A DNA stretch of 64,000 nt from Kordiimonas sp. SCSIO 12610 (GTDB lineage: Bacteria; Pseudomonadota; Alphaproteobacteria; Sphingomonadales; Kordiimonadaceae), in NCBI RefSeq assembly GCF_024398015.1, contig NZ_CP073747.1:2849001-2913000 (forward strand), read 5' to 3'. A model generated the notes under the pieces. It searched no databases, was not told the origin of the DNA, and saw only the letters and a program-made list of their open reading frames with translations. Positions 37,328 to 50,472 of the stretch are shown here, piece after piece; the first letter of the stretch is position 1; each line of letters starts with the position of its first letter. A program made the position numbers and the translations under genes.

Positions 37328-38338
37328 TCATTTCAAGTCATCAAGTGTTCGCGTATTATCAAGCGCCTTTAGAAAGGCGACGATATCCTTGGTTTCTTCA
37401 GGGGTAAATTTAATACCCAACTGATGCCATCCGGTATCCGATACAGCCTGATCCAACTCAAAGACCGCTCCATCATGGAAATAAGGCGCTGTCTGAGCGA
37501 CATTGCGAAGCGTTGGTACCTTGAAAAGATAATTATGACGACGCTTGCCCGTAACCTCTGCCCTGCCCTTATCATCCGTATTCGGATATGGGTTAACGAG
37601 TCCCATCTTCATAAACAGCTCACCCCCCATTAAGGGGCCATTATGGCAGCCATTGCATCCGCTTTTGATAAAGGTATAAAGCCCCTTTTTTTCTTGCTCA
37701 TTCAGGGCATTGTCATCCCCAGCGAGAAAATCATCAAAACGATCCTGCGTTACTAATGTTCGCTGGAAAGCTGCCAAAGCCTCAGCAATAGTATCAAAGG
37801 TTATCGGATCAGATAAATCTGAAAAAGCCGCTGTAAATGCTTGTCTGTATTCTGCGGACTTTGACAATCTTTCAATCGCTATTTCCTCTGATGGCAAGGC
37901 CATTTCATGGTGCGTTAATATCGGACTTTTGGCCTGTTCCGCTAAATTTTCTGCCCGACCATCCCAAAATTGGACAAACTGAAAACCTGCATTCCACACA
38001 GTTGGGCTATTCCTACGCCCTTCAATACCAAGTGCACCAACCGACACTCGCAAATTATCAGTTCCTGAGCCTCCATCACGTAATTCATGGCATGAATTAC
38101 ATGACTGTGTTTCATTCCCAGACAAGGCTGTTTCAAAAAATAATTTTCTACCTAATGCTATACGCTCGATTGTGTCATTTTCGCTTCCAGGCATCTTTTC
38201 CGGCAACTGTCCGAAAACCGCGTTAGCCAAGGCACGCAGATCATCCTCGGCAACCGATTGCATGGAGCTACTCAGAATTATCAAAATTGCCACTAAAAAA
38301 GATTTCACCGCGCTTATCCAATCAACAGGAACTTTCAT
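37328..38338 (-). CDS. Di-heme cytochrome c peroxidase (CcpA/MauG family)
   Basis: 336 residues with a signal peptide. Two c-type heme sites: CNSCHE (Cys80, Cys83, His84) and CNGCHN (Cys228, Cys231, His232), in the usual N- and C-terminal heme domains; FHDGAVFELDQAV and LKALDN are typical of bacterial cytochrome c peroxidases. It reduces H2O2 in the periplasm with electrons from a c-type cytochrome; MauG-like oxidation chemistry cannot be excluded. Divergent from katG, with which it shares a 220-bp promoter region. Confidence 0.92.
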   Translation of the reverse strand: MKVPVDWISAVKSFLVAILIILSSSMQSVAEDDLRALANAVFGQLPEKMPGSENDTIERIALGRKLFFETALSGNETQSCNSCHELRDGGSGTDNLRVSVGALGIEGRRNSPTVWNAGFQFVQFWDGRAENLAEQAKSPILTHHEMALPSEEIAIERLSKSAEYRQAFTAAFSDLSDPITFDTIAEALAAFQRTLVTQDRFDDFLAGDDNALNEQEKKGLYTFIKSGCNGCHNGPLMGGELFMKMGLVNPYPNTDDKGRAEVTGKRRHNYLFKVPTLRNVAQTAPYFHDGAVFELDQAVSDTGWHQLGIKFTPEETKDIVAFLKALDNTRTLDDLK

Positions 38339-38558: not shown

Positions 38559-40781
38559 ATGTTTAAAAAAGCTAGACCGATAGCGGCGACCCTGGTTCTC
38601 GCTCTATCCACGACAATCATGTCACCTGCAATTTCCGTTGCAGAAGATAATACTGTACAAAGCCCAAAATTCTGGTGGCCCGACCAACTTGACCTAAGCC
38701 CGCTTCGCGCCCATGACGTTAAATCTGACCCGCTAAAGGGTGAATTTGACTATGTAAGCGCATTCAACAGCTTAGACCTTGATGCTGTCAAAGGCGACAT
38801 CCGCGAAGTTCTTACAACATCGCAGGATTGGTGGCCTGCTGATTATGGGCACTATGGTCCATTCTTCATTCGCCTTGCATGGCACGCAGCAGGCACATAC
38901 CGTGTGCATGATGGCCGCGGCGGCGCAGGCGGCGGACAGCAACGTTTTGACCCACTTAATAGCTGGCCTGACAACGGCAACCTGGACAAAGCCCGCCGTC
39001 TTTTATGGCCTGTAAAACAAAAATACGGCCGCAATATTTCCTGGGGTGATCTAATTGCCCTAACCGGTAACGTTTCCCTTGAAGACATGGGTTTCAAAAC
39101 ATTTGGTTTCGCGGGCGGTCGCGTTGATAACTGGGAGCCGGATCTTGTATACTGGGGCCGTGAAAAGAGCTTCCTTTCAAACAAGAAACGTTATGACAAA
39201 GACGGTAACCTTGAAAAGCCACTAGCTGCTGTCGAGCAAGGCCTGATTTACGTGAACCCACAAGGCCCACACGGCAACCCTGATCCGCTTGCTTCTGCGA
39301 AAGATATTCGCCTTTCATTTGGTCGTATGGCGATGAACGACGAGGAAATCGTAGCGCTAATCGCCGGTGGTCACACATTCGGTAAAGCGCACGGCGCGAA
39401 GCGCGGCAAAGACTGCGTTGGTGCAGAACCTGCTGCTGCTGCCATCGAAGAACAAGGTTTCGGTTGGAAAAACAAATGCGGTAAAGGTAATGCAGGTGCC
39501 ACACACACAAGTGGTTTCGAAGGCGCCTGGACTGTTACACCGACACAGTGGACAACAAACTACCTCGATAACCTCTTCGGTTTCGAATGGAAGAAATCTG
39601 AAAGCCCGTCAGGTGCTATCCAGTGGATTCCAACTGACGAAGCTGCTAATCAGCTCGTTCCAGATGCGCATGACCCAACAAAACGTCACGCGCCAATCAT
39701 GTTCACAACTGACATTGCAATCAAAGAAGATCCAGAATTCAGAAAAATCGCTGAAAGCTTCCTTGATGACCCAGAAAAGTATGAGCTTGCATTTGCTAAA
39801 GCATGGTTCAAACTTAACCACCGTGATCTTGGCCCACGTGCTCGTTACTTGGGTAAAGAAGTCCCACAGGAAGCGTTAATCTGGCAGGACCCGATCCCGG
39901 CTGTTAACCACGACCTTGTAAACGACCGCGATGTGAAATCCTTGAAGTCAGAGATTTTGAACTCCGGCCTCAGCGTATCCGAGCTTGTTAGAACGGCTTG
40001 GGCTTCTGCTGCCAGCTACCGCGGCACAGACATGCGCGGCGGCGCTGATGGTGGCCGCTTAGCACTTGCTCCTCAGAAGGACTGGGCTGTCAACAACCCA
40101 GCTGAGGTTTCAAAAGTACTTGGCAAGTTGGAAGGCATTCAGAAGTCATTCAACGCAAAATCAAGCAAAAAGAAAATCTCGCTTGCTGATTTGATCGTTC
40201 TTGGCGGCGCTGCTGCGATTGAGAAAGCAGCTAAAGATGCTGGTCATTCTGTAAACGTTCCGTTCAAGCCAGGCCGCATGGATGCAACGCAGGCAATGAC
40301 TGATGTTAAATCCTTCGGTGTTCTCGAGCCACATGCAGATGGTTTCCGTAACTACTATAGTGACGATAGCTATCTTGCACCGCTTGATGCCTTGATTGAC
40401 CGTGCTGCGTTCCTTGACCTTACGGTACCAGAAATGACTGTACTTATCGGTGGTATGCGTTCACTTGACGCAAACATTGGCGGCGCGGATTACGGCGTAT
40501 TCACCGACAAACCGGGCACACTCAATAATGATTTCTTTGTAAATCTTTTGGATATGTCTACAGAGTGGTCAAAATCTTCCAAGTCAGAAGGTATCTACGA
40601 AGGCCGTGACCGCAAAACGGGTGAACTGAAATGGGAAGCAACGCCGATCGACCTGATCTTCGGCTCAAACGCAGAACTACGCGCTGTGGCTGAATATTAT
40701 GGCTACGATAATGCAGACGAAACATTCGCAAATGATTTTGTTACTGCATGGACCAAGGTTATGAACCTTGGCCGCTTCTAA
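38559..40781 (+). CDS. katG: Catalase-peroxidase, exported form
   Basis: 740 residues. A clear signal peptide (to about residue 29, ending ISVAED) places the enzyme in the periplasm, unlike the common cytoplasmic KatG. The distal triad Arg105-Trp108-His109 ([11 protein letters not shown]), the Met-Tyr-Trp crosslink partners Tyr231 (GLIYVNPQG) and Met257 (GRMAMND), and the proximal His272 ([10 protein letters not shown]) are intact, and the second, heme-free half of the duplication is complete. It decomposes H2O2 by catalase and peroxidase activity. Single gene, ended by a bidirectional terminator; divergent from the cytochrome c peroxidase. Confidence 0.96.
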
Positions 40782-40810
40782 GCCTTAGACCATTACAGTC
40801 TATAAAAACA

Positions 40811-40838
40811 AAAGCCCCGAAACAATTCGGGGCTTTTT
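40811..40838. terminator. Bidirectional terminator between katG and the flotillin operon
   Basis: AAAGCCCCGAA / TTCGGGGCTTT stem; T tract on the plus side and, on the minus strand, TTTTGTTTTTA after the stem. Serves both convergent genes. Confidence 0.9.
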
Positions 40839-40862: not shown

Positions 40863-42623
40863 CTACTCTGAGGTATCCTTATCAGTTCCCTTAAAACTCT
40901 CAGTAAATCCATTCAAGTCATCGGATTTCAGACCAACTTCAGATAATAACGAATCCACCAGCGGTGCCTGAGCGCGGTATTTAAGGGCCGAAGAAACTAC
41001 CTTATCGGCTAAATTATCGCCGCCGGTTGTAGCTCCAGACACCTCACCGGATGCCGCTGTTGCACCGTTTAGTCCGTCAAGCTGGATAATTTTGATATCA
41101 TCAATATTCTCCATTGGTTTCGCGCTTTCACGGATAATTGCCTCAAGATTTTCAATCAATTCGAGCTTCACACGCATTGCAACCTGTTCGTTGGACAAGA
41201 GGTTCGCAGCCTCATTAAGGGCCTGATTACCTGTTGCTTCAACCGCATAACGAATTTCAGCAGCAGCCGCGCGCATTTTCTCTGCTTCTGCTTCCGCCTC
41301 AGCCGTAATGCGGGCTTCGTCCGCTTCACCGCGTGCTTTCTCACGAATAGCTTCTGCTGTATCCGTTGCTGCAATTTTCTCTGCTTCAGCGGCAATTTTT
41401 ATCGCGATCGCTTCTCTTTCCGCTTCCTTCGCGGCTTCAATCAGTTCGATCTGCTTTTGCCTATCTGCGATTTCAGTTTCACGCGCGGTTGACACTTTCT
41501 CTTCTGCCTGAACCGCCAGTGCCCTTGCCTGATCGGCTTCTGCTGCCGCCTCAGATTGCTCTTTGGATTTGACACTAATCGCAATATCGCGCTCTTGCTC
41601 GGCTAGCTCTACCGCTTTACGGCGTTCGATATCCTGCGTTTCAACAGCACGGTCTTTCGCGATATCTCGCTCTTTGATAAGCTTATCTTTCTCGATCCGC
41701 TCTTCTTCAACCGCACGCTCGGATGTAATCGAAGAGGTCTGAACTTGCTGGTTCGCAATAATTTTAGCCTGCTCGGCCTCACGTTCTTTGTCCGCTTGCT
41801 CCTTAGCAATTTCTGCGACCTGTGCCGCGCGGCGAATTTCAACTTCACGCTCTTGAGCGAGGCGAGCGTATTCTTCTTCCTTATCGATCTCTAGCGTTTC
41901 TTTAGCCGCTTGCAGGTTCTTGTTTTTGATCTGAACAGCAGTATCCTGCTCAATATCATTTCTGATTTTCTTCCGCTGTTCGATTTCTTCGGTCAGGCGC
42001 GTTAGACCCTCAGCATCAAACGCATTGTTTGGATTGAAATACTCCATACCTGTTTGATCCAGGCCAGTCAGTGATACTGTTTCCAACTCTAAACCGTTCT
42101 TGAGCAAATCTTCGGACACCACTTGCTGCACTTTCTGAACGAAATCAACGCGCTGCTCGTGCAGGTCCTCCATTGTCATTTCCGCTGCAACCGAGCGAAG
42201 GGCGTCAACAAATTTACCTTCCACGAGATCCTTCAGCTTTTCAGGCTGCATGGTCCGCGCTCCAAGTGTTTGGGCCGCATTTGCAATGGCATCATCGGTT
42301 GGCTGCACGCGTACATAAAATTCTGCAACCACATCTACCCGCATCCGGTCACGCGTAATAAGCGCCTGCTCATTCGCTCTGTGAACCGCAAGCCGGAGCG
42401 TGTTCATATTTACTGGAATAATTTCATGCAAGACCGGAAATACAACTGAGCCACCGTTTTTAATGACTTTCTGACCACGCCATCCAGTTCGAACATAACT
42501 GACCTCTTTACTTGCTCGGGTATATAATCGAGCAATAATTACTCCCATTAATAAAAAAGAAAATAGTAGAAAACCAACGATAGCTGTAATTAAAGTAGTG
42601 CTGTCGAGTGCATTGAATTCCAT
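40863..42623 (-). CDS. Flotillin-family SPFH protein (YqiK/FloT type)
   Basis: 586 residues. One N-terminal membrane segment (about 12-33), an SPFH domain (about 40-215), a long Ala/Glu/Lys-rich coiled coil (about 225-470) with repeated AE(R/K)EA patterns, and a C-terminal flotillin tail (LSNEQVAMRVKLELIENL). Bacterial flotillins organise membrane microdomains and respond to envelope stress. It ends an operon with PspA and YqiJ proteins, the grouping known for the E. coli yqiJK and related loci. Confidence 0.92.
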   Translation of the reverse strand: MEFNALDSTTLITAIVGFLLFSFLLMGVIIARLYTRASKEVSYVRTGWRGQKVIKNGGSVVFPVLHEIIPVNMNTLRLAVHRANEQALITRDRMRVDVVAEFYVRVQPTDDAIANAAQTLGARTMQPEKLKDLVEGKFVDALRSVAAEMTMEDLHEQRVDFVQKVQQVVSEDLLKNGLELETVSLTGLDQTGMEYFNPNNAFDAEGLTRLTEEIEQRKKIRNDIEQDTAVQIKNKNLQAAKETLEIDKEEEYARLAQEREVEIRRAAQVAEIAKEQADKEREAEQAKIIANQQVQTSSITSERAVEEERIEKDKLIKERDIAKDRAVETQDIERRKAVELAEQERDIAISVKSKEQSEAAAEADQARALAVQAEEKVSTARETEIADRQKQIELIEAAKEAEREAIAIKIAAEAEKIAATDTAEAIREKARGEADEARITAEAEAEAEKMRAAAAEIRYAVEATGNQALNEAANLLSNEQVAMRVKLELIENLEAIIRESAKPMENIDDIKIIQLDGLNGATAASGEVSGATTGGDNLADKVVSSALKYRAQAPLVDSLLSEVGLKSDDLNGFTESFKGTDKDTSE

Positions 42624-42674
42624 AAGTCTACTCCCTTGACTTTGGATTGAAAGATTGAACGTAAACGCGCAGGT

Positions 42675-43343
42675 TTAATCGTCCGTCATAAATTCTTTGG
42701 TGTTTGCAATGACGTAAAAAAGAGCTTGTTCTTTGCGAACAATAATCACGTCATCACCCTGGTTGAACGAAGCGTCATCCATGTCGGGTTCCGCCATAAA
42801 ATAGTGATCTTGACCAAACTGATCAGCAAGCTTGATTTGTGCTGGATTGCCGCGCCCCATAGTGCCCAGAACCACTTTGGCTGAATGGCCGACAAAACTA
42901 TCCGTCTTAACCGCTGATGTTTCATCCTTCGGCATTATTTTCGCCAAGACACCAGCAAAAAATCGGACCACTGGCAAACAAATCAGAAGGCTGCTGATAC
43001 TAGCAACAAAACCATTTACTGTACTACCGAGAATGGCTGCGAGAACCCCTTGGAAAACAATACCAGTTAGTCCAAAGGCCGTTAAAAAGGCAATCATAAT
43101 GACGATCACAGGCACCTCGCGGAAGCGAAGCCATGATAGGAATTCACCAAAGGCACCGCTATCACCAACATCGCCAGCATCAAGGTCTATATCTGCTTCG
43201 GGAAAGATACTATCCAGTAAGCCTGAAAGCGCAAACCCCACAACTGCGCCAATACCTTCCAGAACACCTATTGCGATCACAAGACCCAAGGCAACCGAGA
43301 ATGCGATATTTTCTGGCGCTAAAAATAATTCTATGACTGTCAA
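42675..43343 (-). CDS. YqiJ-like membrane protein with OB-fold domain
   Basis: 222 residues with TTG as probable start (GAGGGGGA upstream). Three or four membrane helices (about 12-40, 78-105, 108-130) precede a soluble C-terminal OB-fold-like domain (SFVGHSAKVVLGTMGRGNPAQIKLAD, in part GHSAKVVLGTMGRG). YqiJ/NfeD-like partners accompany flotillins. 51 bp before the flotillin gene in the same operon. Confidence 0.85.
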   Translation of the reverse strand: MTVIELFLAPENIAFSVALGLVIAIGVLEGIGAVVGFALSGLLDSIFPEADIDLDAGDVGDSGAFGEFLSWLRFREVPVIVIMIAFLTAFGLTGIVFQGVLAAILGSTVNGFVASISSLLICLPVVRFFAGVLAKIMPKDETSAVKTDSFVGHSAKVVLGTMGRGNPAQIKLADQFGQDHYFMAEPDMDDASFNQGDDVIIVRKEQALFYVIANTKEFMTDD

Positions 43344-43407
43344 TAAATCCCCCTCTCGCTACTAAAAACCAATAATCAATATTTTCTTGATCAAGAAAAG
43401 AGGAAAT

Positions 43408-44076
43408 TTATGCTTGCTTATCTTTTATAGCCTTCAAACGTTCCTGAATGGCGTTCTTCTTTGATAATTCTTCTAGTTCAGCCAATTTAACTGACGTTTC
43501 GTCAAGTGCATCACCGCTTGGTAAACTACCTGCGACACGCTCAAAAACTCTTGTCGCTGCTTCCACCTTGGCATTAACATCGCTATTTGGGTTCGGTTGA
43601 TTGTCACCATCCAGTATTTGGTTCTGAGCGGCTGCCGCCTGATGTTTTTTATAGTCATCCAGTTCCTGAAGCATTTCGCTTCGCTTGCCTTTTAAGGCCT
43701 TTATGTAACCTTCAAGCTCTTGTTCACGCTCTGAGTAATCTTTAACCGATGCTTCCAATATTGGAACCTGCGCTTCCAGGTCCATCTGACGCGCAATCGC
43801 AGCCTCTGCAAGATCATCTCTATTTTCGGCAATAGCCACTTCAACCTGACTGGTTAGTTCTTCATGCTTGTTGCTGTTTTCAGTAAGTTGCTTACTGGCT
43901 AAATGTTTATCAGCCGTAATTTTGCCATAGGAAACACGAACCTCAGCAATTGCATCATCAATTTCCCGTAACGCTTGTTCCATAACGGCTTCAGGGGCTG
44001 CATTTTCAATCGCATCAATCATCGCATTGATACTGCCACTTATTATTCGACCTACTCGGTCACCTAATTTTGCCAT
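43408..44076 (-). CDS. PspA/IM30-family protein
   Basis: 222 residues, almost entirely helical coiled coil. N-terminal amphipathic helix (LGDRVGRIISGSINAMID), the PspA repeat EQALREIDDAIAEVRVSYG, and heptad-rich segments to residue 150. PspA proteins bind stressed inner membranes and can form rods. The tail (150-222) is more variable. Cotranscribed with YqiJ and flotillin; third partner of the membrane-stress module. Confidence 0.9.
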   Translation of the reverse strand: MAKLGDRVGRIISGSINAMIDAIENAAPEAVMEQALREIDDAIAEVRVSYGKITADKHLASKQLTENSNKHEELTSQVEVAIAENRDDLAEAAIARQMDLEAQVPILEASVKDYSEREQELEGYIKALKGKRSEMLQELDDYKKHQAAAAQNQILDGDNQPNPNSDVNAKVEAATRVFERVAGSLPSGDALDETSVKLAELEELSKKNAIQERLKAIKDKQA

Positions 44077-44093
44077 AAAAGCTCCTCACTTGT

Positions 44094-44615
44094 TTATTTA
44101 TTGAAAATAGTAGTTAGTTTCTCAGCTTCACTGTCACTCAGCTGTTTATGCTGCCCAGAATCCAAAAGGGTTTTCAGCGCCGGAAGGAACACAGCCAACT
44201 GCATCAAGCATTCATACTCCAAGCCCCCCAATTCAGAATATGGTTCACTTCCGGCACCGAAATTTTGTTTATCACTATTTTTTGGGCTGCCCTGAACCCT
44301 ACCCTCCACTTGATACTGTCCTAATGACGCAATCATTTTTGGAAGCCACGCCGACATTAAGGATAGGACAGGATAACTTTCACCCTTTAATCGTTCCTCA
44401 GCACGTAACTTGGCGGCTAGTGGGCGCAATAATTCTTCGCATTGTGCGTATAGTCCCTCAAATGTCTCGGCCTGCTCGCTTCTTATTCGTTCTGTTTGAA
44501 CCAGGTACCTAACTTTTTCGCTCATGGTAATGGCGTCAGGCTCCTTCAGGTCTGCGATAAAAGCAGCATCCTTTTGCGATAAACGTACACTAAGTGGAAT
44601 TGGCTTTTGACTCAT
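44094..44615 (-). CDS. Uncharacterised protein with ribbon-helix-helix-like N-terminus, first gene of the PspA operon
   Basis: 173 residues, not recognised as a known family. The N-terminus (PLSVRLSQKDAAFIADLK ... MSEKVRYLV) looks like a CopG/RHH DNA-binding fold: a beta strand with alternating residues followed by two helices. The rest is helical with a Ser/Gly-rich loop near 115. It starts the operon RHH-PspA-YqiJ-flotillin (gap to pspA 17 bp), and a 24-bp palindrome lies 45 bp upstream, which suggests autoregulation. Regulator function is inferred. Confidence 0.7.
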   Translation of the reverse strand: MSQKPIPLSVRLSQKDAAFIADLKEPDAITMSEKVRYLVQTERIRSEQAETFEGLYAQCEELLRPLAAKLRAEERLKGESYPVLSLMSAWLPKMIASLGQYQVEGRVQGSPKNSDKQNFGAGSEPYSELGGLEYECLMQLAVFLPALKTLLDSGQHKQLSDSEAEKLTTIFNK

Positions 44616-44659
44616 AGCACCCCAACACGTTTTGCATGCTTTTTATTACCTATGATTTA

Positions 44660-44683
44660 ATATGTATGCATTTGTATACATAT
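44660..44683. promoter_or_regulatory. Palindromic operator candidate upstream of the PspA/flotillin operon
   Basis: Perfect 8-bp arms ATATGTAT / ATACATAT separated by 8 bp, 45-68 bp before the start codon of the RHH-like gene. Position and symmetry fit a binding site for a dimeric repressor such as that RHH-like protein. Confidence 0.55.
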
Positions 44684-44740: not shown

Positions 44741-44776
44741 AAAACAAAAAAAGGCCACAAGCGCGAACTTGTGGCC
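44741..44776 (-). terminator. Terminator of the autotransporter gene
   Basis: On the minus strand GGCCACAAG / CTTGTGGCC around a 6-base loop, followed by a T-rich tract (TTTTTTTGTTTT). Confidence 0.9.
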
Positions 44777-44817: not shown

Positions 44818-47800
44818 TTAGAAAGCGAACCTAATGCGTGCTACACCAGCGTGGCTATTGAAGTCAGAGCGATATTCACCCTCGTAGCCAAGTGTGATTG
44901 ATGTGTTTCCGCTAGTGAAAATGCCGAGTGACGCATCAACTTCGAAGCTTGAAGCTGTTGGGTCAACACCAGTGAGCGCAAAGTTGTTGCCACCAGCAAA
45001 GCTTGCGTTCAGGCTGCGGGCTTCGTCAGCAAGGTCATAGTACCAACCAACAGAAACCTGCGGTACAAGTTTGAAACCATCATTTTCGATTGGAAGTGCG
45101 AACTTTGCACCAACCCCAGTTTCAAAGATTGTTACGCTATCGGCATCCACAACAAGGTTCAGTCCACCAATTTCAGTAAAATCACTTTGTGAAATATTAG
45201 CATACTGAAGACTTGCGAATGGAGAGAACTCCAGATCACCGAGGTTTGCTTTGTAACCAGCAGTTACTTTTGCTGAGAACTGATCAACATCAAAGTCTGA
45301 AGAGATCGTATCAACAATTGCTTGACGGCTACTGTCAGCATTACCGAAGACATATGCAAGAGCACCGTTAACAAATGTTCCTTCATCTTCATATGATGCA
45401 TAAGCATTCAAGCTGTAGCTGTCGATTGAAGTCTCTTCAAACGCTCCGCTTGTTTCCTCAACATCAATATCAGAGTATGAGAAAGCAACACCCGCACGAA
45501 CATTATCAGCAATTGCTGTGTCCGCACCGATTACAAAACCATAACTGTCAGCATCATAACCAGAGAAGGTCAATCCACCTTCGCTATCACGGTCTGCTGT
45601 ACGGCCGAACGCTTGACCCCAGATCGCGTTACCTTCAGCGTCACCACCAAGGCGGCTATCAATAAGGCTCAGAACCTGGTTCTGTGTTTCATAAACTTCA
45701 CGTGTCACACCCTCATTTAGGGTTGGAAGCAAGCTGGAAGCAGCAAGTTCAAACTGACGGTTGTTTGTGAAGCCGTTGATGGCATTTGCATTTGCAGCGA
45801 AAGCAGCATCGCCGTTACCTGCCTGCAATGCACCAGCGAACGCAGAACCGAACGATGAAACATTTACATCATTTGAAAGCGCAGCAAGGTTAACAACTGT
45901 CGGCGTTACTGAAACAGCATTTGATGAAGCCACAACATTGAAATCAACGAGGAAGTTGTTTTCAGGAGCAAATGACACACCATTGTTTGTCAAAGTACCT
46001 GTTGTAGTAATCAAATTAGTAGCTTGGCCAAAGCTTAGGCTTGTTACATCTGTGAAGTTTAGCGAAACTTGGCTAGCATTTCCAAATGTCGCATTACCGT
46101 CAACATTGATAATCTCTCCGAGATCAAAGTTAACAAGGCCGTCAACTGCAACATCACTTGCAACATTGATTGTACCCACAACATCCAGTGAACCACCAGC
46201 AAGGATGTTCACTTGGTTGCTACCCGTACCAAGATCAATATCGCCAGAGATAGAGCCACCAGAGATGTTCAGAACATCATCGCCAGCACCAGTTAACACA
46301 CCGCCAACTAGGTCGCCTGAGTTATTGATGATCACATTGCCGAATGATGTACTTGCATCAATCGCAGCCGTTGCACCTGAAATCGTGCCTGAGTTCGTAA
46401 TATCGCCAGCAAAAGTGATATTTTCAAGCAAGATTCCTGCTGATGTTTCAGAAGCAATGGTACCAGTGTTATCGATATCTAGGTTAACAACTGGACGCAT
46501 CATGTTAGGTGGATAGAACACGCGGAGGCCAGCAGCTTCACCAGAAGCAAGAGCAGTACCACGACCCTGAATAATACCCGCGTTCGAGATAGTGTGCGTG
46601 CGCTCACCAGCGAGGGCCTGAATAGAAACACCTGAACCATTGTTGCCAGCGCCTGCATCAATCACACCACCAGCAAGGTTGTTCAGTGTTACATTGTTGG
46701 CTGTGCCATCAAAGTAAACTGTACCATTACGCTGATCGCCTGTACCAAGGATTGAACCACTGTTGTTAACAGTAAGACCGATACCGTCGATGTTAAGTGC
46801 GCGACTTCCTGATGAAATTGTACCGAAGTTGTTTACAACACCACCAGTGTGATCAGCGCCAGCGCCGTCAACCGGGTTACCGAAGTAAAGACCGTTTTGT
46901 GCACCGGAGATAACACCACCAGCTTCGTTCGTCAGTGTACCCTGGAAACTGATACCGTTTACAAAACGGATACCTGCTGTTGTACCCTGTGTGCTCTCTG
47001 AGTTGATTGTACCAGAGTTCGTGATTGTTCCGTCAAACACACCGATGTTGCCAACGTTACCGATACGAACACCGTCGCCTGCAGCGTTTTCAGCAGCAGA
47101 AGCCTGACCGCGACCCTGAATAGTGCCAGAGTTGATAAGGTCAAATGTGTTGCCGTCTGCAGCAATCTCTGCACCGAAGCCTGAACCTGTGTTACCAGCG
47201 CCTGCGTCCACGAGACCAGCGTTGTTGAAAGTGAAGTCCTGTGCAGTGCTGTCAGCATATACTGTACCGTTACGCTGGTTGCCTGTACCGATGATTTCAC
47301 CAGTTGCAAGGTTGTTTACTTCAAGGCCGATACCATCGATGTTAAGGGCACGGCTGTCAGAAGAGATCGTGCCAGCGTTGTTGACAACACCACCAGTGTG
47401 ATCAGCGCCAGCGCCGTCAACCGGGTTACCGAAGTAAAGACCGTTTTGTGCACCGGAGATTACACCACCAGCTTCGTTCGTCAGTGTACCCTGGAAGCTG
47501 ATACCGTTTACAAAACGGATACCTGCTGTTGTACCCTGTGTGCTCTCTGAGTTGATTGTACCAGAGTTTGTGATTGTTCCGTCAAACACACCGATGTTGC
47601 CAACGTTACCAATGCGAACACCGTCACCTGCAGCGTTTTCAGCAGCAGAAGCCTGACCGCGACCCTGAATAGTACCAGAGTTGATAAGGTCAAATGTGTT
47701 ACCGTCTGCAGCAATCTCTGCACCGAAGCCTGAACCTGTGTTACCAGCGCCTGCGTCCACGAGACCAGCGTTGTTGAAAGTAAAGTCCTGTGCAGTGCTG

Positions 47801-50472
47801 TCAGCATATACTGTACCGTTACGCTGGTTGCCTGTACCGATGATTTCACCAGTTGCAAGGTTGTTCACTTCAAGGCCGATACCGTCGATGTTAAGTGCGC
47901 GACTTCCTGATGAAATTGTACCGAAGTTGTTTACAACACCACCAGTGTGATCAGCGCCAGCGCCGTCAACCGGGTTACCGAAGTAAAGACCGTTTTGTGC
48001 ACCGGAGATAACACCACCAGCTTCGTTCGTCAGTGTACCCTGGAAGCTGATACCGTTTACAAAACGGATACCTGCTGTTGTACCCTGTGTGCTCTCTGAG
48101 TTGATTGTACCAGAGTTTGTGATTGTTCCGTCAAACACACCGATGTTGCCAACGTTACCAATGCGAACACCGTCACCTGCAGCGTTTTCAGCAGCAGAAG
48201 CCTGACCGCGACCCTGAATAGTACCAGAGTTGATAAGGTCAAATGTGTTACCGTCTGCAGCAATCTCTGCACCGAAGCCTGAACCTGTGTTACCAGCGCC
48301 TGCGTCCACGAGACCAGCGTTGTTGAAAGTAAAGTCCTGTGCAGTGCTGTCAGCATATACTGTACCGTTACGCTGGTTGCCTGTACCGATGATTTCACCA
48401 GTTGCAAGGTTGTTAACAGTAAGACCGATACCGTCGATGTTAAGTGCGCGACTTCCTGATGAAATTGTACCGAAGTTGTTTACAACACCACCAGTGTGAT
48501 CAGCGCCAGCGCCGTCAACCGGGTTACCGAAGTAAAGACCGTTTTGTGCACCAGAGATAACACCACCAGCTTCGTTCGTCAGTGTACCCTGGAAGCTGAT
48601 ACCGTTTACAAAACGGATACCTGCTGTTGTACCCTGTGTGCTCTCTGAGTTGATTGTACCAGAGTTTGTGATTGTTCCATCAAACACACCGATGTTGCCA
48701 ACGTTACCAATGCGAACACCGTCACCTGCAGCGTTTTCAGCAGCAGAAGCCTGACCGCGACCCTGAATAGTGCCAGAGTTGATAAGGTCAAATGTGTTAC
48801 CGTCTGCAGCAATCTCTGCACCGAAGCCTGAACCAGTGTTACCAGCGCCTGCGTCCACAAGACCGGCGTTGTTGAAAGTGAAGTCCTGTGCAGTGCTGTC
48901 AGCATATACTGTACCGTTACGCTGGTTGCCTGTACCAAGAATTAAGCCTGTGTTGTTCACTTCAAGACCGATACCATCGATGTTAAGGGCACGGCTGTCA
49001 GAAGAGATCGTACCAGCGTTGTTTACAACACCACCAGTGTGATCAGCACCAGCGCCGTCAACCGGGTTACCGAAGTAAAGACCGTTTTGTGCACCGGAAA
49101 TTGTTCCAGTGTTTGTTAGTGTACCCTGGAAGCTAATACCGTTTACGAAACGGATACCTGCTGTTGTACCCTGTGTGCTCTCTGAGTTAATTTCGCCAGA
49201 GTTCGTGATTGTTCCATCAAACACACCGATGTTGCCAACGTTACCAATGCGGACACCGTCGCCTGCAGCGTTTTCAGCAGCAGAAGCCTGTCCGCGACCC
49301 TGAATAGTACCAGAGTTGATAAGATCAAATGTGTTCGCACCATCAGCAGCACCGCCGATTTCAGCACCAAAACCTGATCCTGTGTTGCCTTCACCTGCAT
49401 CAACAGAGCCTGCGTTATTGAACGTAAAGTCATCAGCAGTACCATCAGCATATACTGTACCGTTACGCTGGTTGCCTGTACCGATGATTTCACCAGATGC
49501 AAGGTTGTTTACTTCAAGGCCGATACCATCGATATTAAGCGCGCGGCTATCAGAAGAGATCGTCCCAGCGTTGTTGACAACACCACCAGTGTGGTCACCG
49601 CCGCCTGCAGGCGTTGGGTTACCGAAATACACACCATTCTGTGTACCAGAGATAACACCGCCAACTTCGTTGGTTAGCGTACCCTGGAAGGAAACTCCAT
49701 TAACAGCACGGAAACCAGCAACAGTACCGTTAGCACCTTCAGAAGAAATAGTTCCTGAATTTGTGATTGTACCCGTAAACAAACCTGTCGTCGTCGCATC
49801 AAGTGCACCGCCAACGCGTGTGCGCTCAAGGCGGATACCATCGCCTGCTGTTGCAAGGCCTGCACCCTCGTTACCACGACCAGCTATCGTGCCAGAATTG
49901 ATAATATCAAAATCTGTACCTTCCGCTGCAAGTTCAGCCGAGAAGCCTGCACCAATCTGACCTGCACCAGCATCAATTGTGCCGCTGTTTGTCAACGAAA
50001 AGTTGTTCGCTGTCACATTAGAGTAAACAGTGCCATTGCGCTGACTTAATGTACCCAAAATAGAGCCATCATTAACAATCGCTGCATTCAAGCCATTAAT
50101 TTCAATAGCACGCGAGTCGGCAGTAATAGAGCCAGTATTAGTATTGTTAATAATAATGCCGTTGCCATTTAATGTTAGCGTGTTGGTAACACCAGTTGTT
50201 GAGAGTGTTCCTGCATTGTTAACGATAACATCGTTGTTGTTAACAGTCAGAAGCGGTGCCCCCGCAACAGTGCTTGTACTTCCAGTGTCAACGAGGATGG
50301 TTTCACCATCAACCTGGCTTGTACGTGACTGGTTGTCACCATTTGGGATTATTGTTTGGGCAGATACAGCGCCAGAAAGCGCCATTGCCAATAATGATGT
50401 CGAAGCCATTAGCCTCTTGTTTAAGAAACGAGCGGTATGTGCCGAATCTATTTTACCAAATTTCTTGCTCAC
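44818..50472 (-). CDS. Giant autotransporter with near-identical passenger repeats
   Basis: 1884 residues. An extended signal region (cleavage near residue 39, GAVSAQT) precedes a passenger rich in G, N, T and S with NSGTI/NNAGTI turns, typical of a right-handed beta-helix. About seven copies of a 183-residue unit fill residues about 115-1370; the central five are nearly identical. After a link region (1370-1600) comes the autotransporter beta-barrel (about 1610-1884), starting WGQAFGRTADRD and ending in the terminal aromatic ARIRFAF. Type V secretion to the surface is expected, with adhesion or aggregation as common roles. Divergent from the TonB receptor gene. Confidence 0.93.
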   Translation of the reverse strand: MSKKFGKIDSAHTARFLNKRLMASTSLLAMALSGAVSAQTIIPNGDNQSRTSQVDGETILVDTGSTSTVAGAPLLTVNNNDVIVNNAGTLSTTGVTNTLTLNGNGIIINNTNTGSITADSRAIEINGLNAAIVNDGSILGTLSQRNGTVYSNVTANNFSLTNSGTIDAGAGQIGAGFSAELAAEGTDFDIINSGTIAGRGNEGAGLATAGDGIRLERTRVGGALDATTTGLFTGTITNSGTISSEGANGTVAGFRAVNGVSFQGTLTNEVGGVISGTQNGVYFGNPTPAGGGDHTGGVVNNAGTISSDSRALNIDGIGLEVNNLASGEIIGTGNQRNGTVYADGTADDFTFNNAGSVDAGEGNTGSGFGAEIGGAADGANTFDLINSGTIQGRGQASAAENAAGDGVRIGNVGNIGVFDGTITNSGEINSESTQGTTAGIRFVNGISFQGTLTNTGTISGAQNGLYFGNPVDGAGADHTGGVVNNAGTISSDSRALNIDGIGLEVNNTGLILGTGNQRNGTVYADSTAQDFTFNNAGLVDAGAGNTGSGFGAEIAADGNTFDLINSGTIQGRGQASAAENAAGDGVRIGNVGNIGVFDGTITNSGTINSESTQGTTAGIRFVNGISFQGTLTNEAGGVISGAQNGLYFGNPVDGAGADHTGGVVNNFGTISSGSRALNIDGIGLTVNNLATGEIIGTGNQRNGTVYADSTAQDFTFNNAGLVDAGAGNTGSGFGAEIAADGNTFDLINSGTIQGRGQASAAENAAGDGVRIGNVGNIGVFDGTITNSGTINSESTQGTTAGIRFVNGISFQGTLTNEAGGVISGAQNGLYFGNPVDGAGADHTGGVVNNFGTISSGSRALNIDGIGLEVNNLATGEIIGTGNQRNGTVYADSTAQDFTFNNAGLVDAGAGNTGSGFGAEIAADGNTFDLINSGTIQGRGQASAAENAAGDGVRIGNVGNIGVFDGTITNSGTINSESTQGTTAGIRFVNGISFQGTLTNEAGGVISGAQNGLYFGNPVDGAGADHTGGVVNNAGTISSDSRALNIDGIGLEVNNLATGEIIGTGNQRNGTVYADSTAQDFTFNNAGLVDAGAGNTGSGFGAEIAADGNTFDLINSGTIQGRGQASAAENAAGDGVRIGNVGNIGVFDGTITNSGTINSESTQGTTAGIRFVNGISFQGTLTNEAGGVISGAQNGLYFGNPVDGAGADHTGGVVNNFGTISSGSRALNIDGIGLTVNNSGSILGTGDQRNGTVYFDGTANNVTLNNLAGGVIDAGAGNNGSGVSIQALAGERTHTISNAGIIQGRGTALASGEAAGLRVFYPPNMMRPVVNLDIDNTGTIASETSAGILLENITFAGDITNSGTISGATAAIDASTSFGNVIINNSGDLVGGVLTGAGDDVLNISGGSISGDIDLGTGSNQVNILAGGSLDVVGTINVASDVAVDGLVNFDLGEIINVDGNATFGNASQVSLNFTDVTSLSFGQATNLITTTGTLTNNGVSFAPENNFLVDFNVVASSNAVSVTPTVVNLAALSNDVNVSSFGSAFAGALQAGNGDAAFAANANAINGFTNNRQFELAASSLLPTLNEGVTREVYETQNQVLSLIDSRLGGDAEGNAIWGQAFGRTADRDSEGGLTFSGYDADSYGFVIGADTAIADNVRAGVAFSYSDIDVEETSGAFEETSIDSYSLNAYASYEDEGTFVNGALAYVFGNADSSRQAIVDTISSDFDVDQFSAKVTAGYKANLGDLEFSPFASLQYANISQSDFTEIGGLNLVVDADSVTIFETGVGAKFALPIENDGFKLVPQVSVGWYYDLADEARSLNASFAGGNNFALTGVDPTASSFEVDASLGIFTSGNTSITLGYEGEYRSDFNSHAGVARIRFAF
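46824..49563 (-). repeat. Tandem 549-bp repeats inside the autotransporter gene
   Basis: Five in-frame copies (the TQGTTAG landmark lies near 46978, 47527, 48076, 48624 and 49161). Three spacings are 549 bp or within one base of it; one is 12 bp shorter because of two 2-codon deletions. Copies around 47522-48410 are identical over hundreds of bases. Divergent flanking copies lie on each side (about 46365-46823 and 49564-50120). Differences between copies cluster in SSDSR/SSGSR, LEVNN/LTVNN and ATGEIIG/TGLILG. Confidence 0.95.

Follow-up and report, generated by a model that had tools for sequence, protein, structure and literature searches.

What controls a PspA operon that carries no pspF gene beside it is the question raised by a four-gene locus of Kordiimonas sp. 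SCSIO 12610, an alphaproteobacterium whose genome is a single contig of 3.5 Mb; to our knowledge, the control of PspA systems without PspF is largely open outside a few models. We analyzed a 64,000-nucleotide stretch of this contig (NZ_CP073747.1, positions 2,849,001 to 2,913,000; hereafter the window, to which coordinates refer unless another locus is named), in which four minus-strand genes (44615-40863) follow one another in series. They encode a 173-residue protein that we call P1, a PspA/IM30 paralogue, the membrane protein YqiJ and a flotillin, with intergenic gaps of 17, 64, and 51 nt in that order. P1, a conserved operator, and PspA are inherited together in a fixed gene order, and the sequences lead us to propose that P1 is probably a ribbon-helix-helix (RHH) autorepressor of its own operon that is relieved by a membrane signal, most simply through PspA.

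The first-pass annotation of the window had placed an RHH-like gene, PspA, YqiJ, and flotillin in this order on one strand, an order that the open reading frames (ORFs) confirm, with Pfam matches for the last three: PspA matches PF04012 (58 bits, 1.3e-15; cut-off 33.9), YqiJ matches YqiJ_N (PF21001, 1.8e-33) and YqiJ_OB (PF07290, 5e-22), and the flotillin matches Flot (PF15975, 2.4e-39) and Band_7 (PF01145, 3.2e-16). We then searched genome samples spread by kinship labels, with the own genome counted each time, and found P1 in 9 of 59 relatives, 11 of 385 genomes of the class, and 5 of 398 genomes of the phylum; ORFs at these loci were called mechanically, and P1 starts in relatives were picked by eye at the conserved start. 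One class hit (G427) was dropped as spurious, as it covers only profile positions 88-155 (E 1.7e-4), and PspA, YqiJ, and flotillin are all absent near it; L010 duplicates L011 and was counted once. The resulting 23 distinct P1 loci carry 13 family labels and belong to at least two classes of one phylum. Conservation of the first gene with the other three, on which the annotation had staked its reading in advance, was found throughout: the order P1-PspA-YqiJ-flotillin lies on one strand at 23 of 23 loci, 21 of which are complete, while the start of flotillin (L071) or of YqiJ (L091) runs off the contig in the other two. The spacing between the P1 and PspA genes, 17 nt in the window, was measured at 15 loci, and at 7 of these, the two genes share an overlap of 4 bp. 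No P1 match at E up to 0.01 was obtained from 72,556 plasmid records.

The linkage is also seen from the other end of the operon. A reverse search with the YqiJ profile over the 385 class genomes found YqiJ in 25, and all 11 of these that have P1 possess a separate PspA between P1 and YqiJ. Among the 14 without P1, 9 carry flotillin and give no match to the operon PspA profile within the 8-9.5 kb that were read; in the remaining 5, PspA forms the C-terminal half of a long ORF (383-401 aa). Thus, in the class sample, a free-standing PspA before YqiJ is always preceded by P1.

Upstream of P1 lies a perfect 8+8+8 palindrome that had been put forward as the operon's own operator, a claim that we retain for a perfect and conserved core but not for its architecture. 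The conserved arms are 8-2-8, and an 8+8+8 operator was ruled out because conservation does not extend to the outer positions on one side. Since 34 of 100 shuffles also contain an 8+8+8 palindrome with up to 3 mismatches, the single match of this kind in the window proves little by its count; under a slightly looser pattern, the perfect form is confined to this one place in the 3.5-Mb genome, which has no one-mismatch site either. The conserved inner 18 bp follow the consensus TGYATRCA-NN-TGYATRCA, and in the eight P1-bearing genomes of the host's taxonomic family, the promoter region consists of a TTGAAA-like hexamer, 2-3 nt, TGYATRCA-NN-TGCATACA, an AT-rich stretch, and a CATAGGTT-like element. 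The search pattern TGYATRCANNTGYATRCA was fixed on this family before the upstream regions of the class loci were read. In the own genome, it has one site with 0 mismatches, at the P1 operon, and 10 sites at up to 2 mismatches compared with 2 for the reversed pattern. The two one-mismatch sites lie inside a 183-aa ORF (L063) and outside the listed ORFs of at least 100 aa (L062); a wider regulon was considered and rejected, the only perfect operator being that of the P1 operon.

We evaluated the best operator match at each locus against 300 dinucleotide shuffles of the 200 nt before each P1 gene. Over the 23 loci, this match has 0 mismatches in 10, 1 in 1, 2 in 5, 3 in 4, and 4 in 3, and at 20 of them, no more than 4 of the 300 shuffles do as well. 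All eight family genomes with P1 have 0 mismatches. Outside the family are 15 loci, which represent 14 genera because L069 and L071 share one genus; 12 of these pass, with 0-3 mismatches reached by no more than 4/300 shuffles. Palindromes related to the operator are found in L088 (TGATTACATATGTAATCA) and L018 (TGATTACATATGTAAACA), on which basis the operator core may be TACA-NN-TGTA. As controls, we used 16 regions of 260 nt each without P1, namely five operons with fused PspA (see below), ten YqiJ-flotillin operons, and the classical pspA (for L079, whose ORF is over-long, the gene start was placed manually), where the best match has 4-7 mismatches. The operator therefore follows P1 on the whole and not PspA, YqiJ, or flotillin as such.

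The position of the operator relative to the core promoter speaks to the sign of control. In the window, the operator fills the spacer between a -35-like and a -10-like hexamer and touches the latter. Eight family members have TTGAAA, TTGAAT, or TTGTAA at the -35 position, and in seven of the eight, the promoter scan places the -35 hexamer 8-9 bp before the operator start and a -10 candidate overlapping the operator end; in L013, the scan lists other promoter candidates, with TTGAAA visible by eye. The same arrangement recurs outside the family in L072 and L075, and in L018, L066, L067, L070, L073, L087, and L090, the best-matching site contains a -10 candidate. Repression would fit these sites, since they sit in or just behind the core promoter. 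Right behind the operator, a second conserved element (44644-44662, minus strand) is found at the same place in L011-L017; it centers on CATAGGTT, reads AACC-N2-3-GGTT in several members, and is partly palindromic, in the window as TATTAAATCATAGGTAATA.

P1 itself has no Pfam match at E up to 1 and none among NCBIfam families, and a search of PDB sequences with the P1 profile gave a best E of 0.32, to unrelated helical proteins. An alignment of 19 of the 23 sequences reveals that conservation is highest at the N-terminus, with K-S-V-P-L-S-V-R-L-S followed by D-A-A-F-I-A and then T-x-S-E-K-V-R; columns S9, R11, A28, S32, K34, and R36 are invariant in 19 of 19 rows, and elsewhere only E133 is. 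RHH proteins are built as a ribbon, helix A, and a helix B that begins at an S/T-x-S-E motif, and the P1 N-terminus appears to follow this order, its conserved blocks falling as ribbon, helix A, and helix B. We compared this region by hhalign with an RHH_1 reference alignment of 15 stretches from relatives (of 16 found; L106, with 17 positions, was omitted), which gave Prob 76 and a score of 25.4 with 43 columns in register. Under the same comparison, no score above 9.8 is obtained with four other slices of P1 and seven of YqiJ, and none above 16.8 with 200 column-shuffled versions; P1 scores 9.8 against HTH_3 (a reference of 16 stretches out of a longer list), and one half of the RHH set against the other half scores 55.9. 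The nearest Pfam match is to DUF6290, which we take to be RHH-like (E 0.012, in 1 of 19 P1 members). We therefore read the N-terminus as RHH-like on a moderate match, which is well ahead of chance but remote and below Pfam level. AlphaFold, run on residues 1-55 as a monomer with two input sequences, returns helices at 8-24 and 31-53 (pLDDT 75). Sequence searches assign no known domain to the C-terminal region (about 125 aa), and P1 is not RHH-like outside residues 4-46.

A number of observations weigh against a P1 that represses through an RHH fold at this operator. None of the 19 P1 members exceeds the cut-off of a Pfam RHH model, and an unrelated pair, RHH_1 against HTH_3, scores 20.8 in hhalign, though over 14 columns. 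The AlphaFold model of full-length P1, from two input sequences, has a pLDDT of 48.7, too low for use, and the monomer model of residues 1-55 draws most of the ribbon region as helix and finds no PDB match in Foldseek. An RHH chain modeled in the absence of its dimer partner may well be drawn as helix; the RHH-like N-terminus of the annotation has the best profile match found on its side and, at face value, the 1-55 model against it. On the DNA side, the best operator match in L066, L073, and L088 (3 of the 15 loci outside the family) has 4 mismatches, no better than chance, and the fusion control L138 equals these three. L069 and L071 have the operator directly after the -10 candidate, the promoters listed for L068 and L088 put it at or upstream of the -35 hexamer, and the promoter scan of L074 and L091 lists no promoter.

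From these sequence patterns, we infer that P1 binds DNA, that it represses and does not activate, that PspA is the signal, and that the products act jointly at the membrane. P1 would occupy the 8-2-8 operator between the -35 and -10 hexamers of a sigma70-type promoter and repress the operon. RHH operators consist of adjacent symmetric boxes that are taken by side-by-side dimers. Each 8-bp half of the present operator (TGTATACA and TGCATACA) is palindromic or nearly so, and the half-site centers are 10 bp apart, so that two RHH dimers would be expected to sit side by side on it. Envelope stress would lift repression, most simply in that the C-terminal region of P1 binds, or is displaced by, PspA. 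In the classical system, PspA acts on PspF, and this analogy, together with the constant presence of PspA as a neighbor, suggests PspA as the signal for P1. The products of the operon would then act at the inner membrane, where PspA would remodel or seal and YqiJ and flotillin would dock PspA.

Parts of this scheme can be replaced. P1 might be a DNA-binding autoregulator whose inducer is not PspA, responding to another ligand or holding the operon at a constant level by negative autoregulation without stress sensing. Negative autoregulation is common for RHH proteins encoded by the first gene of an operon, and no ligand site stands out in P1, given that E133 is the sole invariant column outside the N-terminal segment in the 19 rows; yet P1 was never found without an adjacent PspA at the 23 loci, and the 4-bp overlaps suggest a specific partnership, which makes this alternative unlikely in our judgment. 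A change of sign, with P1 activating the promoter, would suit the -10 hexamers beside the operator in the family, which fit the consensus at only 3-4 of 6 positions. Activator sites, however, usually lie upstream of -35, whereas the promoter listed in seven of eight family members has the operator between -35 and -10 and overlapping -10, the position of a repressor; we regard activation as improbable.

It is similarly hard to credit that the operator is bound by an unlinked regulator and that P1 instead assists PspA, structurally or in the manner of a chaperone, from the slot of a CesT/Tir (YjfI-type) protein. PspA is indeed paired with a CesT/Tir-like protein in operons described in the text of PMC11237479, and the absence of RHH likeness outside residues 4-46 of P1 also speaks for such a role. 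Nevertheless, the operator tracks P1 and is not found in the control YqiJ-flotillin operons that lack P1, fusions included, the RHH-like segment is the most conserved part of P1, and P1 has no DUF2170/CesT match in Pfam. An RHH autorepressor that answers to PspA is the reading that we consider probable.

The first-pass annotation had further suggested that a small RHH-like protein may take over the control of PspA from PspF, which does not hold for this organism: its genome retains a classical pspF / pspA-pspB-pspC locus, with a PspB-like ORF of 74 aa (by reading, no profile) and a PspC-domain protein (66 bits). Replacement of PspF by P1 was accordingly ruled out, both systems being present in one genome. 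The PspA of the P1 operon scores 48.7 bits against the NCBIfam equivalog phageshock_pspA, below the cut-off of 242.95, and is on this account a divergent paralogue; the second PspA of the genome reaches 138 bits to PF04012, compared with 58 for the operon PspA. No pspF, pspB, or pspC is found beside the P1 operon, whose neighbors are katG-like and autotransporter-like genes (by reading). The P1 operon stands alongside the classical locus as a second system, with a divergent PspA.

The operon can be its own transcription unit, since terminator-like hairpins bound it on both sides and enclose no further ORF of at least 60 aa other than ones overlapping the four genes; the terminator scan is weak evidence, with 6 hairpins found in the stretch compared with 4.2 expected by chance. 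Directly upstream on the same strand (44818-50472, minus) is the gene for an autotransporter-like protein of 1884 aa with long near-identical repeats of about 183 aa (549-nt spacing of two mechanical ORFs), and a related ORF occupies the same position in the genus relative L011. Convergent with the operon is a gene for a KatG-like catalase-peroxidase (38559-40781, plus) with a signal-peptide-like start (by reading), which adjoins the operon in L011 too; divergent from it is a cytochrome c peroxidase-like gene (37328-38338, minus) with two CxxCH motifs (by reading).

The slot ahead of PspA is filled differently in other members of the class. Five genomes of the class (L138-L142) carry PspA behind a fused domain of about 165 aa, with a YqiJ or OB-fold protein and flotillin following, and the same fusion is found on Hyphomicrobiales plasmids of Agrobacterium fabrum (L146) and Bosea (L147). 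We looked for P1 inside the fused PspA proteins and found no P1-like segment. A profile of five fusion-domain sequences matches residues 6-133 of a TnpB from Allomeiothermus (375 aa) with 53.7 bits, a tblastn comparison of the fusion domain with this TnpB gives E 6e-5, and a reverse search with the TnpB N-terminus returns three Shinella proteins annotated as PspA (E 7e-4) among the best 60 of 79 records. In sequence, the fusion domain is similar to the first third of TnpB, an RNA-guided nuclease, with the nuclease part apparently missing and PspA beginning in its place. Against this likeness stand eight other TnpB ORFs of the class (mechanical calls) that yield nothing significant with the fusion domain, a pooled TnpB alignment that reaches only Prob 20 (score 31.5, shuffles at most 22.4), and searches of Pfam, NCBIfam, and PDB in which no TnpB is named (PDB best E 1). 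A free-standing hypothetical protein of 176 aa that resembles the fusion domain (tblastn E 2e-3) is encoded on a Thermobacillus composti plasmid (L145 1798-2328, plus), directly before a gene for an S-layer domain protein.

Table. Features of the P1 operon and related loci (window coordinates unless a locus is named)
Feature	Position	Strand	Remarks
P1, 173 aa	44094..44615	-	RHH-like N-terminus (about residues 4-46) and C-terminal region; predicted autorepressor
RHH-like segment of P1, residues 4-46	44478..44606	-	putative ribbon, helix A, turn, helix B starting TMSEKVR; hhalign profile match
PspA/IM30 paralogue, 222 aa	43408..44076	-	PF04012
YqiJ, membrane protein with OB-fold, 222 aa	42675..43343	-	PF21001 and PF07290; TTG start
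Flotillin / SPFH protein, 586 aa	40863..42623	-	PF15975 and PF01145
Conserved operator	44663..44680	-	gene strand TGTATACA-AA-TGCATACA; 8-2-8 inverted repeat, inner 18 bp
Longer 8+8+8 palindrome	44660..44683	.	contains operator; outer ATA on gene-strand 5' side not conserved
-35-like hexamer TTGAAA	44683..44688	-	promoter scan
-10-like hexamer CATATT	44659..44664	-	18-bp spacer; overlaps operator end; consensus match only, 4/6
Terminator-like hairpin, between upstream autotransporter-like gene and operon	44753..44776	-	terminator scan
Two-way terminator-like hairpin, between operon and convergent katG-like gene	40810..40837	.	terminator scan
Classical pspF / pspA-pspB-pspC locus	G000:C1 3298834-3301707 (L077 2335-5208)		sigma54 activator beside PspA
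PspA fusion, class genome	L138 3506-4666	+	
PspA fusion, class genome	L139 3600-4805	+	
PspA fusion, class genome	L140 2891-4051	-	
PspA fusion, class genome	L141 3210-4361	+	
PspA fusion, class genome	L142 4731-5885	-	
PspA fusion, plasmid	L146 4974-6083	+	
PspA fusion, plasmid	L147 4971-6083	+	

A bolder version of the proposal, which we offer tentatively and consider rather doubtful, is that P1 is the founding member of a family of RHH repressors sensing membrane stress directly from PspA and that the slot before PspA generally holds nucleic-acid-binding partners, the TnpB-like fusion domain of other alphaproteobacteria being another occupant. In that case, the C-terminal region of P1 would bind free PspA, and the move of PspA to the membrane would change operator occupancy. 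If true, a one-protein, sigma70-dependent control loop would exist beside the sigma54/PspF loop.

The repressors MetJ, Arc, and CopG have an N-terminal RHH fold and bind adjacent symmetric boxes that overlap the promoter of their own operon; P1 differs in adding a C-terminal region of about 125 aa without a known domain. The classical pspF / pspABC system shares with the P1 operon the control of PspA from its own locus and PspA as a likely feedback partner, whereas the P1 operon has no adjacent sigma54 activator, pspB, or pspC and a sigma70-like promoter. Closest in gene content is an operon described in the text of PMC11237479, in which PspA, a YqiJ/YuaF protein with three transmembrane segments (3TM), and a protein with a transmembrane segment, band-7, and flotillin domains occur together with a CesT/Tir protein and an AAA+ ATPase. 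The P1 operon has in common with it PspA, the YqiJ-type 3TM protein, and the band-7/flotillin protein, and differs in lacking CesT/Tir and AAA+, in having an RHH-like gene first, and in its conserved operator. The section describing it names no regulator gene for the PspA-YqiJ-flotillin operon and places an RHH factor, in some cases, as the last gene of a different PspA operon (the spermine-synthase group). PspA of Bacillus subtilis depends on an SPFH protein and two membrane proteins to reach the membrane (PMC8581546); the pspA-ydjGHI operon likewise unites PspA, an SPFH protein, and membrane proteins, but the partners are YdjG/YdjH, not YqiJ, and the abstract and discussion of that paper mention no RHH-like gene. 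The yqiJ-yqiK operon of Escherichia coli joins YqiJ and a flotillin-like SPFH protein (SPFH2 with an NfeD-like partner), with only yqiJ and yqiK named and PspA not mentioned in the text of the source (PMC2636767).

We found no description of the P1 family, its operator, or the RHH-first four-gene operon in the open-licence papers searched, the figures and supplementary tables of PMC11237479 lying outside this coverage. PspA-YqiJ-flotillin operons are thus known, and the four-gene version with P1 and the operator appears from its sequence to be a new variant, one that suggests a second way, besides PspF, to control PspA. One small protein and an 18-bp site, maintained across 13 families, would constitute a control loop that can be tested, acting on a PspA linked to YqiJ and flotillin, and the operator site lets the regulon be asked for, which looks like a single operon. 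As the constant genetic partner of a divergent PspA, P1 may offer a route to the role of PspA with flotillin, as distinct from the classical Psp response that the cell also has.

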